From the IMG/VR virus record IMGVR_UViG_3300030328_000546, positions 1 through 21,374 of that record: a stretch of 21,374 nt of DNA, one strand, 5' to 3'. The notes beneath the pieces are model-generated. The model saw nothing but the letters and a program-made list of their open reading frames with translations, had not been told where the DNA came from and did no database searches. Of the stretch, positions 16,127 through 20,971 are shown in pieces. The translations under genes were made by a program, and so were the position numbers. Every line of letters begins with the position of its first letter. The stretch's first letter is position 1. The DNA is from a virus.

Positions 16127-16603
16127 TTAAGACGTTAGCATTGTTGCTGTTTGTCCTGCGGTTAAATTAGCCGCACCTCTTCCTGCTGATTGTTTTCTCT
16201 TTTGGTTTTGTGCAGTTAATGCACCTTGAGCATCAACTTCTTCTGCCGCTAATTCTGGAGCCGCAACTGCTTCTTCTTCAGTTTTCCCCTGCGCACCCTC
16301 AACCAGACCTTTTAAAGTGCCACCATAAAGTGAATTTGCCATATCGCCAAATGAACCACCCGGGCCACCTGCCACTGTTCCAGCAGGATCTTTGATAGCA
16401 TTTACCGTACCTGAAACAGCATCATCTACAAATCCTGAAGTTCCCTTTACTGCTTTATTTATAGTTTTTGTGATAGGATTACCACCACCACCACCTCCGC
16501 CTCCGCAGAGTGCGATGTCACCCGAGTATTCAAAAGATTCTGATGATGTTTTTACTAACTCACCATCTTTCCACTCATAATTTACTTCTGTATATATTTT
16601 CAT
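16127..16603 (-). CDS. Small Gly/Ala-rich virion protein, possibly gp7.3-like (158 aa)
   Basis: The protein has three parts. A beta-like N-terminus (MKIYTEVNYEWKDGELVK, then SFEYSGDIALC) is followed by a run of eight glycines (34-41) straight after Cys33. Next comes a Lys/Ala/Gly-rich middle (NPITKTINKAVKG) and an acidic Ala/Glu stretch (about 107-123). The tail is QKRKQSAGRGAANLTAGQ. T7 gp7.3, encoded just before its portal gene, is also small, begins with a Lys/Val/Ala-rich stretch and ends in a basic K-K-x-R-A-G-G type tail; the similar tail and identical position suggest a tail-assembly or virion role. This is a compositional argument, not alignment proof. AAAGG with five bases' spacing precedes the ATG, much like the capsid gene. 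It ends four bases before the portal start. Confidence 0.6.
   Translation of the reverse strand: MKIYTEVNYEWKDGELVKTSSESFEYSGDIALCGGGGGGGGNPITKTINKAVKGTSGFVDDAVSGTVNAIKDPAGTVAGGPGGSFGDMANSLYGGTLKGLVEGAQGKTEEEAVAAPELAAEEVDAQGALTAQNQKRKQSAGRGAANLTAGQTATMLTS
16481..16504 (-). repeat. Glycine-codon microsatellite (8 GGN codons)
   Basis: Eight consecutive glycine codons, five of them GGT in tandem, form a trinucleotide repeat that encodes Gly34-Gly41 of the small virion protein. Such a run is prone to in-frame slippage, so linker length may vary between close relatives. Confidence 0.85.
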
Positions 16604-16622: not shown

Positions 16623-17051
16623 TTATAGTTGTTTCCTTAACAAAATACAATGTTCATTGTACTCTTTCAATACTTTTTTCCATCCTTTCCTACCATAGAT
16701 GTCCATATGGCTACATCCATTATTTTTAGACCATTCCTCTAATGCATGTAAATGAAACGTAAGCCATTCATGCATTCTAGTCCCTCCGATGCTCACGACA
16801 CGACTTATTCTATGTCTAACATATTGAACAATTTCAATAATAACAACTGCTACAATATCTTGAGTATCTTTACTTCTTACGAGCCATAATATATAATATC
16901 CTTCTTTTAATAAAGTTTTTATATCATGGTGATCTAAAAATTCACAATCGGTTCTTTTAATTTCGTCTTTGACTTGATCCCATACATCATCTATTTCATT
17001 TTGATCATATATAATACTTTCAAACGTATGCCCCTTCTTGATGACCTCCAT
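16623..17051 (-). CDS. GNAT-like phage protein, T7 gp13 type (142 aa)
   Basis: The pattern fits the degenerate N-acetyltransferase fold common in phage late operons. A strand GYYILWLVR (51-59) is followed by DIVAVVIIEIVQYVRHRISRV (65-85), then SIGG and a helix MHEWLTFHLHALEEWSKNN (93-111). The end is GCSHMDIYGRKGWKKVL (112-128), where C-x-x-M/V-x-I-Y-G-R-x-G-W is the strongest signature. The Arg/Gln-x-x-Gly-x-Gly/Ala acetyl-CoA loop is not clear, so enzyme activity is doubtful. T7 gp13 is about 138 aa and is needed for virion morphogenesis. The ATG lies 32 bases inside the end of the large terminase gene, with no ribosome binding site before it, so it is probably translated by coupling. In T7 the gp13 gene comes after the tail genes; here it sits between terminase and portal. 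Confidence 0.68.
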   Translation of the reverse strand: MEVIKKGHTFESIIYDQNEIDDVWDQVKDEIKRTDCEFLDHHDIKTLLKEGYYILWLVRSKDTQDIVAVVIIEIVQYVRHRISRVVSIGGTRMHEWLTFHLHALEEWSKNNGCSHMDIYGRKGWKKVLKEYNEHCILLRKQL

Positions 17052-18456
17052 AGTAATCGTATCTATTTATTGCTTTTCGTGGTCTGTTCTTAGGTCTTCC
17101 AGTAGAAGCAAACTTTAAAGATTGCGATGCATATCTAGTTGCACTCATCAAATCATCATGTATTTTTACTATCTTACCTTCTTTCCTATGATACATCCTA
17201 AGTTCTTCAAACCATAAATTCAAGTAATTAAATACTTTAAATCTACCAGTTTGCATTCTCTGAAGCATATCCATGATTCCCGGTTCTACTGAAATACCAC
17301 CATTCGGGTTCTCAAAATGCTTATGTGCCATATTGACACCTTGCTTTCTATATAACTCTGCTAACGGCTTTCCTGAACCTTTATCATGTTGCGAACCATC
17401 GTGAGGCCAAACGACAGGAACCCAATCACCTCTTTCTCTAATAGCGGCTGAGTGGATAACAGGCGTTTCAGCAGATTTACGATAACAGTCATAAACATAT
17501 ATCTTATCAGTATCCCTATCCCATGCCAACCAAACTGCGGCAGTAGGGTGATCCCAACCAAAATCTAAGCCACATAGTCTAGGCCAATGTTCAGGTATAG
17601 CAAAAGGTTCAACTTTCAATTCATCTTCACTTACAGGGAATACAAGTCCTGAACCTAAAACTGGTACTCCTTTAGAACGCATATCTCTTTCATGCGGAGG
17701 TAATGCGGCTAAAATCTCTTTCTTTACATCTTCATCTAAGTGTACCGCATCATCCCATGTAGCATGATATAAAGCCTGTGACTGACCTAACTTCGTCATA
17801 AACTGTGTTACAACTTCGGTCATTCCACTCTCAGGGGTGAAAGTCATAAAGACAATACCACCACTTTTAAGTGCGGCTCTTAGAGCTTGAGAATATATAT
17901 CTTGTGGCGGTTCCTCATCTAACCATGTGACATCTACCGCTTTACCCATCCATTGCATCTTGCCCTGCTCATAGGACTTGAATATCAATTTAGAGTTTTT
18001 ACCAGATACATGTTTAACATTCAAACTCTGGTATGCATTTGGTACACCGGGCATTCTCAAGGGTGCGCCAGAGATATATTGTTTTGGTATTGCGCCTTTA
18101 CCAAATTCGTCTTCATCACCCGGTTCTCCGAGTAGTTCTGCTTGTACTATATCTCTTGTATTAGCGGTAGTATTTCCAGCCGCCCATGCAGTAATTGGTC
18201 TTGAGAACCTAGCACCTTGCCACCATTGGGGGTATCGTCCAGTTAAGTGAAAAGCCAACTCTGAAGCACCGCAAAATGTTTTACCAGTTTTGTTTGCCGC
18301 CATTAACAGACGTTGCCTTGCCAAACGACCCCCCATGTCTTTAGCATCATGGAATCGTTTCTGATACTCATAAGGCACATATTCTAGCAGACGATTAGTT
18401 TCATAGAGTTCAGTAATCTTCTCTGCTATATCAATAGCCTTTTCTGCGTTATTCAT
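17020..18456 (-). CDS. terL: Terminase large subunit (packaging ATPase/nuclease), 478 aa
   Basis: All the key motifs of a large terminase can be read. Walker A is AANKTGKT (53-60), Walker B is VTWLDEE (176-182) with the catalytic Asp-Glu pair, and the coupling motif is MTFTP (204-208). The RNase H-like nuclease domain has its acidic residues in GLDFGWDH (297-303, first Asp at 298), WPHDGS (350-355) and KIHDD (431-435). The protein cuts concatemeric DNA and drives it through the portal. The length is shorter than T7 gp19 (586 aa) but complete from ATPase to nuclease. The start overlaps the stop of the 629-aa gene as ATGA, with AGAAG just upstream. The end overlaps the GNAT-like gene by 32 bases. 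Confidence 0.96.
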   Translation of the reverse strand: MNNAEKAIDIAEKITELYETNRLLEYVPYEYQKRFHDAKDMGGRLARQRLLMAANKTGKTFCGASELAFHLTGRYPQWWQGARFSRPITAWAAGNTTANTRDIVQAELLGEPGDEDEFGKGAIPKQYISGAPLRMPGVPNAYQSLNVKHVSGKNSKLIFKSYEQGKMQWMGKAVDVTWLDEEPPQDIYSQALRAALKSGGIVFMTFTPESGMTEVVTQFMTKLGQSQALYHATWDDAVHLDEDVKKEILAALPPHERDMRSKGVPVLGSGLVFPVSEDELKVEPFAIPEHWPRLCGLDFGWDHPTAAVWLAWDRDTDKIYVYDCYRKSAETPVIHSAAIRERGDWVPVVWPHDGSQHDKGSGKPLAELYRKQGVNMAHKHFENPNGGISVEPGIMDMLQRMQTGRFKVFNYLNLWFEELRMYHRKEGKIVKIHDDLMSATRYASQSLKFASTGRPKNRPRKAINRYDYYGGHQEGAYV

Positions 18457-20342
18457 GCATATCTTCTATATTTCTTAGCCGATAACTTCGTAAGCGGAAC
18501 TTGTCTCTTTCTTAAATGAGGTGCTTTGCTTCCCCCTCCACCTCTAACTCTCATATTTGCTCTTTCCGCATTAGAAGCGGCACGTTCACCAAATGCCTCA
18601 TTAGGTAACATTTGTAATGCACCACCACCGAGAATAAATGGAGTTAATGCTTTTAACGGAGCAGAAGCACTTCTAACTGGTGGTCTATATTTTAACTTAC
18701 CATGTTTTGCCCTGCCCCCATATGCACCTTCTTTTACTTTTGCTCTTACTTTAGCATCCTTTTGTGCTTGGGTTTCTTTTGGCATATCAACATCAGATAT
18801 ATGTTCTAATGTTTTAGATTGCCTATCCCATTTATGAGGATCAGGTTGTCTTGTTAATAATGTTTTACCTGTAATTGGTGGTTTCCCTGCTTTCTTTAGT
18901 TTCTTATTTTTTCTTTCAATAGATTTATAAATTGGTTTTTGTTTCTCAATATTTTCAAGATCCTGTGTAAGCTCATTCTGTTGTTTTTCACCATATGTTT
19001 CTTGATGCCGTTGAATATTACCACCACCACCTTTATCCGATGTAGAACCTTCTATATCTATGGGTTTTACATCTTGTAATGACTTACGTTTTGCTTCTTT
19101 ATGTTCTGGTTCTTCCTCATTACTCATCATAAATTGAGTTAGAGATGACTGACCATAAGCATCCGGCCCGATATTCTTTTTAGCAAGTTCTATATTTTCC
19201 TGTTTAGTCCCTGTAAGAAGAGTTTTATTTACTGGTTTAAATTTTTTCTTATCCTTAACATTGTCACTTGTAGTACCCTCATCATATGCATCTTCAAACT
19301 TTTCTACATATCTTCTTTCTATAAAATCTGAAGAGTCTGCAAGTTTAACTCTTTTTGGTTTACCTTTACCTAATGTTTTAGCAAAAGTTTTACGTCGTTG
19401 TTGACCTCCTTTACCATACCCTACAGCATCCTTCAAAAATGGTATCCGGGGTTTTTGTAGTAATACTTTAGTCTGTGGTTTAGGTTTACTTTGTATATCA
19501 TCTATTTCAAAACGTATTTTTGCTCCTTTGGGCAATGTATCTTCTTCTTGTCTATATAAAAAGTCTGTAACATCTGCTGATGGCCTATTCAACCGTGTTT
19601 TTAAATCTTCATTATATTCTCTCAAATAACCTAGACCAGCTTCACGTTTTGCTGAACCTACAGGATGATCACTTATTTCATCCATTAATGCATTAATAGG
19701 TTTATATGCTTGTGTATTTTTACTTTTCTTAGGACTACCATCTTTTTTCTTAAATTTCAGGGAACGCCAACGACCTTCTTTTTTAATTTCACCCAATCGT
19801 TTTCTCCAGTTATCTCTTTCTAAGCGATCAGGAGCAATAGCACTTAATTTGCCTTCCTGAGAATAAGATACCCTGAATACTTTCCCTGCATCTACTCCTT
19901 TTTGTCTAGCAATTTCTCTATTCTTATACCCTTCTTTTTTATTTGGATCAGGATTATAATCAGAATGGCTTATTGGCCTATCTTCCATTGTTGGCAAATT
20001 ATGCTTTTTTGCCACTCTTGCTACAAAAGCTGAGGTCTTATTACTAGGATTATAATCATGTGCTATTTGTGCGGAACCATACTTCTTTTCAAAGTTCCTG
20101 AAGTTTCTTACTAACTGCTTTTCGTGACCTTCAGTAAATTCAAAGTCTTTTGCTCCTGATACGAGGAAAGTCTTTTTACCACCTTTAGGTAGTGTAGTTA
20201 CAGGCTGTTTAGGAGAGGCAGGGGTACTATCGAATTTAGGATCAACTTTAGTAGGATCCAATTTCAAGGCACGACTATAGTCAGCAGTACGACCATAACC
20301 AGTTATAATAGGTCTTTTTGTCAGGATACTTTTTTTAGCCAT
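18453..20342 (-). CDS. Lysine-rich protein with degenerate SLOG/DUF2493-like domain (629 aa)
   Basis: No known structural gene matches this protein between the two terminase subunits. Residues 57-145 follow the layout of the DUF2493/YspA branch of the SLOG superfamily. A first strand KTFLVSGAKDF (57-67) is followed by a helix EKQLVRNFRNFEKKYG, and a strand SAQIAHD (90-96) by a helix SAFVARVAKKHNLP (104-117). A strand and KNREIA (140-145) correspond to the usual NRE. The expected GG-x-x-GAD nucleotide-binding loop is replaced by DYNPSNKTS, so binding may be lost or changed. The rest (150-629) is low-complexity, Lys/Pro/Gly-rich and probably disordered, with one hydrophobic stretch (APLKALTPFILGGGALQML, 561-579) and a GGGGS linker. 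The strong positive charge suggests nucleic-acid or virion binding. The gene overlaps its neighbours by 8 and 4 bases and has no clear ribosome binding site. Confidence 0.6.
   Translation of the reverse strand: MAKKSILTKRPIITGYGRTADYSRALKLDPTKVDPKFDSTPASPKQPVTTLPKGGKKTFLVSGAKDFEFTEGHEKQLVRNFRNFEKKYGSAQIAHDYNPSNKTSAFVARVAKKHNLPTMEDRPISHSDYNPDPNKKEGYKNREIARQKGVDAGKVFRVSYSQEGKLSAIAPDRLERDNWRKRLGEIKKEGRWRSLKFKKKDGSPKKSKNTQAYKPINALMDEISDHPVGSAKREAGLGYLREYNEDLKTRLNRPSADVTDFLYRQEEDTLPKGAKIRFEIDDIQSKPKPQTKVLLQKPRIPFLKDAVGYGKGGQQRRKTFAKTLGKGKPKRVKLADSSDFIERRYVEKFEDAYDEGTTSDNVKDKKKFKPVNKTLLTGTKQENIELAKKNIGPDAYGQSSLTQFMMSNEEEPEHKEAKRKSLQDVKPIDIEGSTSDKGGGGNIQRHQETYGEKQQNELTQDLENIEKQKPIYKSIERKNKKLKKAGKPPITGKTLLTRQPDPHKWDRQSKTLEHISDVDMPKETQAQKDAKVRAKVKEGAYGGRAKHGKLKYRPPVRSASAPLKALTPFILGGGALQMLPNEAFGERAASNAERANMRVRGGGGSKAPHLRKRQVPLTKLSAKKYRRYA
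19908..20174 (-). other. SLOG/DUF2493-like domain region (residues about 57-145)
   Basis: The order strand-helix-strand-helix-strand-NRE and the spacing agree with small DUF2493 proteins, whose consensus runs roughly V-x-V-x-G-x-R-D-F, I-x-x-x-H-G-G-A-x-G-A-D, A-x-x-x-G-I-P, R-N-R. Here GAKDF, IAHDYNPSN, AKKHNLP and KNREIA stand in the corresponding places. The match was made by eye and needs a profile search. Confidence 0.5.
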
Positions 20343-20544
20343 TAGTCAATAATGTCTTTTTATTCTTATTATAGAATTTCTTCATCCAATGGTGTGTATC
20401 GGATCTATACTTTGCCCACTTATTTGCAGTATCTTCACTTTTAAAACGTCTAAGCACCTCTCCTTGAGGCTTCTTTTTATCTGAAGGATACTTTCTTACC
20501 TCTGCAAGACCTTTATGCATCCATGTCTGTGAATTTTCATGCAT
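20335..20544 (-). CDS. Small basic unknown protein between terminase genes (69 aa)
   Basis: A short, strongly basic protein rich in Lys, Arg, Trp and His. It has a likely helix FKSEDTANKWAKYRSDTHHW (34-53) and a C-terminus YNKNKKTLLTNG. I recognise no family. It overlaps the small terminase stop by 8 bases and the 629-aa start by 8 bases, so it is probably translated by coupling and is a genuine gene despite its size. The KKTLLT ending resembles short segments in the next protein (NKTLLT, GKTLLT and KKSILT). Its place between the terminase genes suggests a packaging accessory or DNA-binding role, but nothing in the sequence proves it. Confidence 0.6.
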   Translation of the reverse strand: MHENSQTWMHKGLAEVRKYPSDKKKPQGEVLRRFKSEDTANKWAKYRSDTHHWMKKFYNKNKKTLLTNG

Positions 20545-20971
20545 CAGTCAGTTGTGGGCCTGTAATTACTTTCCTACTCTTAAACGCACCAACGAGCATC
20601 TTAGCACCATCTTTACCGACTAAGGCAACTAATTGTGCATTAAGCTCTTCTATGGTACGTCCTGTGTCCATTTCATTAAATATCTTATGACCACCCCTGT
20701 CAAGCATTTCTTTTGCCGCATTGAGCTTTACAGTATCACTATCGCTAGTAACCATTAAGCGTTCAATTACACCTAATGCTCTTGGGCCACCTTCTTTCAA
20801 CCGGGCATTGAACTTCTTGTCAACCTCATCTCGGTTAGCTTCTAAAATCTCACGGCCTTTTAACTTGACTTTATAGGCATTCTTCTCTGTTGAACCAGCA
20901 TCTTTCATTGCGACAAGATAATCTCCTGTCTCAACAAAAGAATCTATAAACTTTTCTGTACTAAGAGCCAT
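20537..20971 (-). CDS. terS: Terminase small subunit (144 aa)
   Basis: The N-terminus has the layout of small terminase DNA-binding domains. A helix STEKFIDSFVETGDYLVAMK (4-23) leads into a helix-turn-helix-like DAGSTEKNAYKVKLKGREIL (24-43). A charged helix follows (NRDEVDKKFNARL). The middle LGVIERLMVTSDSDTVKLNAAKEMLDRGG (residues 66-94) is the oligomerisation-type region with the frequent K-x-x-A-A-K-x-x-L-D-x-x-G pattern of phage terminase small subunits. The C-terminal part (about 105-144) probably contacts the large subunit. The protein recognises the packaging start on phage DNA. The ATG overlaps the upstream gene's stop as TAATG. The large subunit follows two genes later rather than directly. 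Confidence 0.85.
   Translation of the reverse strand: MALSTEKFIDSFVETGDYLVAMKDAGSTEKNAYKVKLKGREILEANRDEVDKKFNARLKEGGPRALGVIERLMVTSDSDTVKLNAAKEMLDRGGHKIFNEMDTGRTIEELNAQLVALVGKDGAKMLVGAFKSRKVITGPQLTDA

Follow-up and report, generated by a model that had tools for sequence, protein, structure and literature searches.

The window analysed here is a 21,374-base IMG/VR virus record, and it derives from an uncultured marine podovirus. Gene calls and matches to Pfam and PHROGs show podovirus-type late genes on its minus strand. The series begins with a probable terminase small subunit (TerS; 20537..20971; phrog_2538, E 0.0019), followed by a 69-aa ORF with KKTLLTNG at its C-terminus (20335..20544), the 629-aa protein that is our subject (18453..20342), the terminase large subunit (TerL; 17020..18456; Terminase_6N and Terminase_6C), a 142-aa protein and a 158-aa protein. 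It continues with the portal (Head-tail_con), a scaffold-like protein, the major capsid protein and tail-tube proteins. The 629-aa gene is an open frame that occupies the same place in related contigs. It shares a few bases with the 69-aa ORF and with TerL, the overlap with the latter being ATGA, in an operon-like arrangement. Among isolated phages, Pelagibacter phage Baldr has the nearest TerL (56%). The 142-aa protein (16623-17051; phrog_25629) lies between TerL and the portal, and a putative acetyltransferase is annotated at its position in Baldr. One relative contig of 5.5 kb (L171 / L069) is binned in a SAR86 cluster MAG, a weak hint at the host.

The 629-aa protein falls into three parts, all on the minus strand. 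An N-terminal domain at residues 56-192 (19767..20177) is a degenerate, YspA-like member of the SLOG superfamily, as judged by an iterated HMM, hhalign, AlphaFold2 models and fold comparisons with the BFVD and the PDB. It is followed by a helical module (19536..19706; helices 213-224, 231-251 and 256-269 in the full-length AlphaFold2 model), in which a recurring motif, LDE[IVL]xD, can be read across the relatives and appears in the window as MDEISD. The remainder, residues 270-629 (18456..19535), is a basic tail, mostly predicted to be disordered (pLDDT mostly <50). In the full-length model only the SLOG domain and helices 213-269 are predicted with confidence, and a further helix spans 450-485. 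Lysine and arginine make up 22% of the whole protein, and aspartate and glutamate 13%. A hydrophobic segment recognized by hydropathy, LKALTPFILGGGALQML, lies near the C-terminus (residues 563-579; 18606..18656); it stands weakly above shuffled tails (z about 2 in the window), and most relatives have a comparable segment.

The initial annotation had put a SLOG/DUF2493-like domain at 20174..19908, which is residues 57-145 exactly, in a late-gene product that carries a long basic tail, and the position between TerS and TerL and the composition bear out that description. The motifs it named are exactly where it put them: GAKDF at 63-67, HD at 95-96, DYNPSNKTS at 96-104, KKHNLP at 112-117 and KNRE at 140-143. 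Its span holds these motifs but is too short, as the confident domain extends to residues 56-192. In the alignments, strand 1 and the loop after it (residues 58-67; 20142..20171), ending in GAKDF, correspond to xLVxGGRDF of YspA, the replaced ligand loop HDYNPSNKTS (residues 95-104; 20031..20060) corresponds to HGGARGAD, and KNRE (19914..19925) is the counterpart of the invariant RN of YspA. Against the GxR[DEK]F-type loop and the third-helix RN, GAKDF and KNR are conservative, partial matches.

By itself the window protein is hardly recognizable. Searches of Pfam, PHROGs, PADLOC and PDB sequences gave only chance-level matches (DUF592, 0.15; phrog_11376, 0.4). Searching the isolated phages in the collection with tblastn gave no credible match to the 629-aa protein, and the domain alone reached only E 10 in phages. 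One weak match, to MT837355 (E 0.4), was set aside; most of it falls in a 397-aa frame that by eye looks like a transcription regulator. The Baldr proteins between the corresponding genes have no similarity to the 629-aa protein.

Scans with the 629-aa protein, TerL and TerS were used to collect related contigs, most of them short. Where TerL is >=75% identical and the upstream region is present, most have a gene of 530-1,200 aa directly before TerL, or else before an HNH-like gene which in turn precedes TerL. An iterated HMM started from residues 53-205 of the window protein gathers 38 sequences, namely the window protein, 35 ORFs from the list of upstream genes, and L019 and L048, which are the same gene but were missed by the list; no gene other than that upstream of TerL falls below E 1e-3. 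The reverse search, in which an HMM of 18 phage YspA proteins was run against 1,059 ORFs, ranks the same genes at the top, several of the matches being short or within tails. A profile from alignment A3 found no relative among PDB sequences. Other proteins occur close by in these contigs. Sister contigs encode a smaller protein between the SLOG-type gene and TerL (L067 1952-2842, L070 4186-4995, L115 3904-4707, L117 3705-4982); that of L070 has a weak HNH/GmrSD_C match (HNH_4, E 9e-4), and the other three are HNH-like by eye. In more distant contigs the position immediately before TerL is taken by a conserved 108-aa protein (L134 2630-2953, L145, L147, L151), which looks nuclease-like by eye; that of L134 has no Pfam match.

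It is the wider family that reveals the fold. Aligned with phage YspA/DUF2493 by hhalign, the family gives a probability of 95 (P 4e-8) and a score of 48.7, against 17.5 for the best of 100 column-shuffled decoys. By subgroup the scores are 36.1 for B, 30.9 for C and 20.5 for the window subgroup. The last is weak (P 4e-4 to 5e-3), with shuffled decoys nearly as good, and as it is not decisive alone, the SLOG assignment rests on the wider family and on structure. The Pfam family matched by most members is YAcAr (PF10686; six of 32, best E 1.7e-4), although in whole-record scans members reach at best 22.7 bits against a curated cut-off of 28.2. An AlphaFold2 model built from a 32-sequence alignment is a confident alpha/beta domain (pLDDT 81) whose strands and helices follow the SLOG order. 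Its first match in the BFVD is a YspA/cpYpsA SLOG protein, and seven of the top 16 rows are named YspA or DUF2493. A second model, of the whole protein and from a different alignment, has the same elements, with YspA proteins again among the top rows.

Comparison with the PDB is less telling. Foldseek returned nothing at E <= 0.001 for the domain model, and a second look placed Bacillus subtilis YpsA first (2nx2; Z 6.6, rmsd 4.2 over 113 residues), a match that is weak by itself, as Z is under 8, below the level that excludes a merely common arrangement. The SLOG domain of ThsA, at rank 29 in the PDB structure search, was not taken as evidence. One might argue from this low Z, from the failure of the window protein to match Pfam and from the near-decoy level of its subgroup that the resemblance is a coincidence and the domain some other Rossmann-like or unrelated fold. 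We regard this as highly improbable, as the family profile, the Pfam tally and the viral structure search all indicate YspA. The predicted structure, its BFVD matches and the family alignment agree on a YspA-type Rossmannoid fold, and profile and model together support homology to the SLOG superfamily in the broad sense. The two tests set beforehand for the SLOG reading, a profile search and a predicted structure, were both run and neither refuted it: the family profile matches YspA/SLOG, and the model is ordered and SLOG-like despite the replaced GGxxGAD loop. Of the narrower assignment to DUF2493/YspA, the fold stands, but membership of Pfam YAcAr does not, the window protein being below the usual threshold. 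On these profiles and models, the modular late protein does contain a SLOG domain, though a strongly diverged one.

The window protein shares with phage YspA proteins the predicted fold and its order of strands and helices, and matches them in part at GxxDF following strand 1 and at KN(R) in the third helix. It differs in that its domain is followed by a helical module and a long tail, GGxxGAD is replaced, and the second YspA loop, FPGGxGT, is lost as well, with SQEGKL in its place. The ligand loop is about two residues longer in the family than in YspA. Where YspA has HGGARGAD, members of the family have HGGR...S.ID, YGGYKGSDTD, FRGSRTSQAD, FRDISKKDSGD or FDGWDYSQAN, and the window lineage has HDYNPSNKTS. 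GG..D is retained in other subgroups and is absent from the window loop. In the aligned sequences the decay of the loop is stepwise, through YGG..D, FRG..D and FDG..N, with the window as the extreme. The canonical glycines and the aspartate of the loop are gone, so the window domain is no more than a candidate nucleotide binder.

Loss of the canonical loop does not mean that the gene is decaying. HDYNPSNKTS is identical in six homologs, and HDYN and TS are retained in L050, whose domain is only 42-44% identical. In comparisons with L002, L003, L004, L011 and L069, dN/dS is 0.08-0.18 for the SLOG domain and 0.36-0.46 for the tail; against L050, the most distant, it is 0.35 and 0.64, and the closest pair, with L001, is uninformative. 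These values are approximate because some dS are near or above 1. The SLOG domain is the most constrained part of the protein and is under purifying selection, and since the loop is conserved and domain dN/dS is low, degeneration of the canonical site is to be distinguished from decay of the gene. A loop in which GG and D have all been replaced, and which is nevertheless invariant in six homologs at low dN/dS, is what would be seen if the domain had lost its ligand altogether and acted as a decoy through protein-protein contact, for example by poisoning the assembly of host SLOG or TIR proteins. This is unlikely in our estimate: no host partner is known, an altered ligand explains the conservation equally well, and the retention of GG and D by other subgroups implies that the ancestor probably bound a ligand.

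An indication of what the gene may do comes from its relatives, in which two or three recognizable domains are found where the window protein has one. A cpYpsA SLOG domain (PF12694) occurs in the same open frame of L041, L047, L048, L118 and L128 (E 1.7e-20), NADAR in the same gene of L126 and L128 (E 1e-8) and DUF7831 in that of L063 (E 4.6e-42), with weaker matches to macro (L046, L047) and ASCH (L053). In L128 the cpYpsA domain directly precedes the matched part of NADAR and appears to be inserted in a NADAR-like region. The NADAR-containing genes lie upstream of TerL, at 2364-4694 in L126 and 1351-4422 in L128. When 50 whole records were scanned in six frames for four families, every match to cpYpsA (6), NADAR (2), YAcAr (6) and macro (3) fell in this gene. 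The SLOG subtype of the window is found on two types of tail, and so is subtype C. The gene is therefore modular, its SLOG subtypes and C-terminal tails being exchangeable among the sequences compared.

This modularity bears on whether the protein is an accessory in DNA packaging or processing, working with TerS and TerL through a SLOG fold that binds DNA as that of DprA does. The gene sits between the terminase subunits with overlapping frames, its product has a basic tail, a sister clade has an HNH-like protein between it and TerL (L070, HNH_4, E 9e-4), and phage YspA proteins are often annotated as DprA-like. The modules fused in relatives, however, handle ADP-ribose or nucleotides rather than DNA, N-termini and tails are swapped rapidly, unlike packaging parts, and isolated phages with TerL 52-57% identical do without the protein. 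The module context points to nucleotide or ADP-ribose signalling more than to DNA processing alone, with the sponge, decoy and DNA-processing roles suggested by the initial annotation as candidates. Position and basic tail keep the packaging role in play, and we consider it unlikely.

A short motif recurs in this region. The 629-aa protein has three copies of the pattern [ST][ILM][ILM]T, with limits on the flanking residues, against 0.02 expected: KSILTK (20316..20333), KTLLTG (19209..19226) and KTLLTR (18849..18866), all on the minus strand. The pattern is also present at the C-terminal ends of the 69-aa ORF and the 158-aa ORF, and the remaining window proteins examined lack it. Across loci it is present in at least half of the members of 15 protein clusters, where 1.2 such clusters would be expected from shuffling the representatives, and of 172 copies 49 are <=15 residues from the C-terminus. 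As the pattern was chosen after the sequences had been seen, this enrichment is descriptive. The form [ST][IL]LT[RKGENS] is strongly enriched in unrelated proteins around the terminase and portal, often at the C-terminus, among them the protein at window positions 16127-16603. A literature search on LLTG-type motifs gave nothing relevant among the matches listed. The sole part common to the internal proteins of T4 is a leader that directs their packaging (PMC12373910), and with this precedent a role in targeting to the virion is a natural hypothesis; by analogy, the short motif may be a virion or assembly address.

The long disordered basic tail, the C-terminal hydrophobic segment and a motif common to small proteins around TerL and portal could belong to an ordinary internal or ejection protein, in which the SLOG fold is a recycled module with no immune role. 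That leaves unexplained why macro-like, NADAR, cpYpsA and DUF7831 modules have repeatedly been fused at one place, and we think this reading quite unlikely.

Immune signals derived from NAD and ADP-ribose are the predicted targets of phage SLOG domains, which often occur in fusions with macro and NADAR domains, and it has been proposed that the proteins of this NAD-ADPr network whose genes lie near terminase and portal enter the virion and are injected (PMC9503650; PMC7824862; PMC5512222). The family fits this picture in context and module content. Like the large polyvalent or head-packaged NAD-ADPr proteins (PMC5512222; PMC9503650), its members occur in a terminase-portal context, and relatives combine several NAD/ADP-ribose-type modules. 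Unlike them, the family belongs to a podovirus clade, occupies a constant position between TerS and TerL, has a degenerate SLOG as its core module and is a putative virion component; the window protein shares the portal-terminase context but lacks the several effector domains. The circularly permuted SLOG cpYpsA is of the same superfamily and is an extra module in relatives but absent from the window protein. ThsA of the Thoeris system, which is activated by cyclic ADP-ribose isomers (PMC11204291), likewise has a SLOG domain of this superfamily, with no sequence match and a loop different from that of the window.

The explanation that we prefer, at a little short of an even chance, is that the 629-aa protein is a modular late protein of the polyvalent type that uses its SLOG domain to bind or mimic the nucleotide signals of the host. 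The protein would be made together with the packaging proteins of an uncultured pelagiphage-like podovirus clade, would probably be carried in the virion and injected, and would then counter host nucleotide signalling. Its shared N-terminal module is a SLOG domain drifted from YspA, in which the phosphate-binding GGxxGAD became HDYNPSNKTS in the window lineage; with the loop so altered, a changed ligand or a protein partner is likelier than the ancestral cleavage of N-glycosidic bonds. Relatives have added modules that handle ADP-ribose or nucleotides (macro-like, NADAR, cpYpsA-SLOG, DUF7831 and ASCH-like) to the same scaffold. Against this preferred explanation, the window protein has a degenerate SLOG domain alone and no extra effector module. 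A bolder version, which we hold to be doubtful, makes the slot between TerS and TerL a dedicated, capsid-delivered cassette of nucleotide-signal modules exchanged on a delivery scaffold, with [ST][IL]LT, which other small head-region proteins also carry, as the virion address, and the window loop rebuilt to capture a signal that known SLOG domains do not bind.

Phages are known to sequester immune second messengers with sponges such as Tad1 and Tad2 (PMC12043709), and phage SLOG, macro and NADAR domains have been proposed to blunt NAD-derived immune signals and to favour phages with larger genomes (PMC9503650). The fusion of different modules to one scaffold is consistent with an arms race, and their swapping would fit a weapon that evolves against the immune signals of the host and may travel inside the virus particle. 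This clade of marine podoviruses reserves one rapidly diversifying gene, between its terminase subunits, for such modules. If packaging and ligand binding are true, the family would offer a natural series of loop variants, from GG..D to DY..S, for ligand change in a nucleotide-sensing fold, and would hint that marine bacteria use defences based on signalling.
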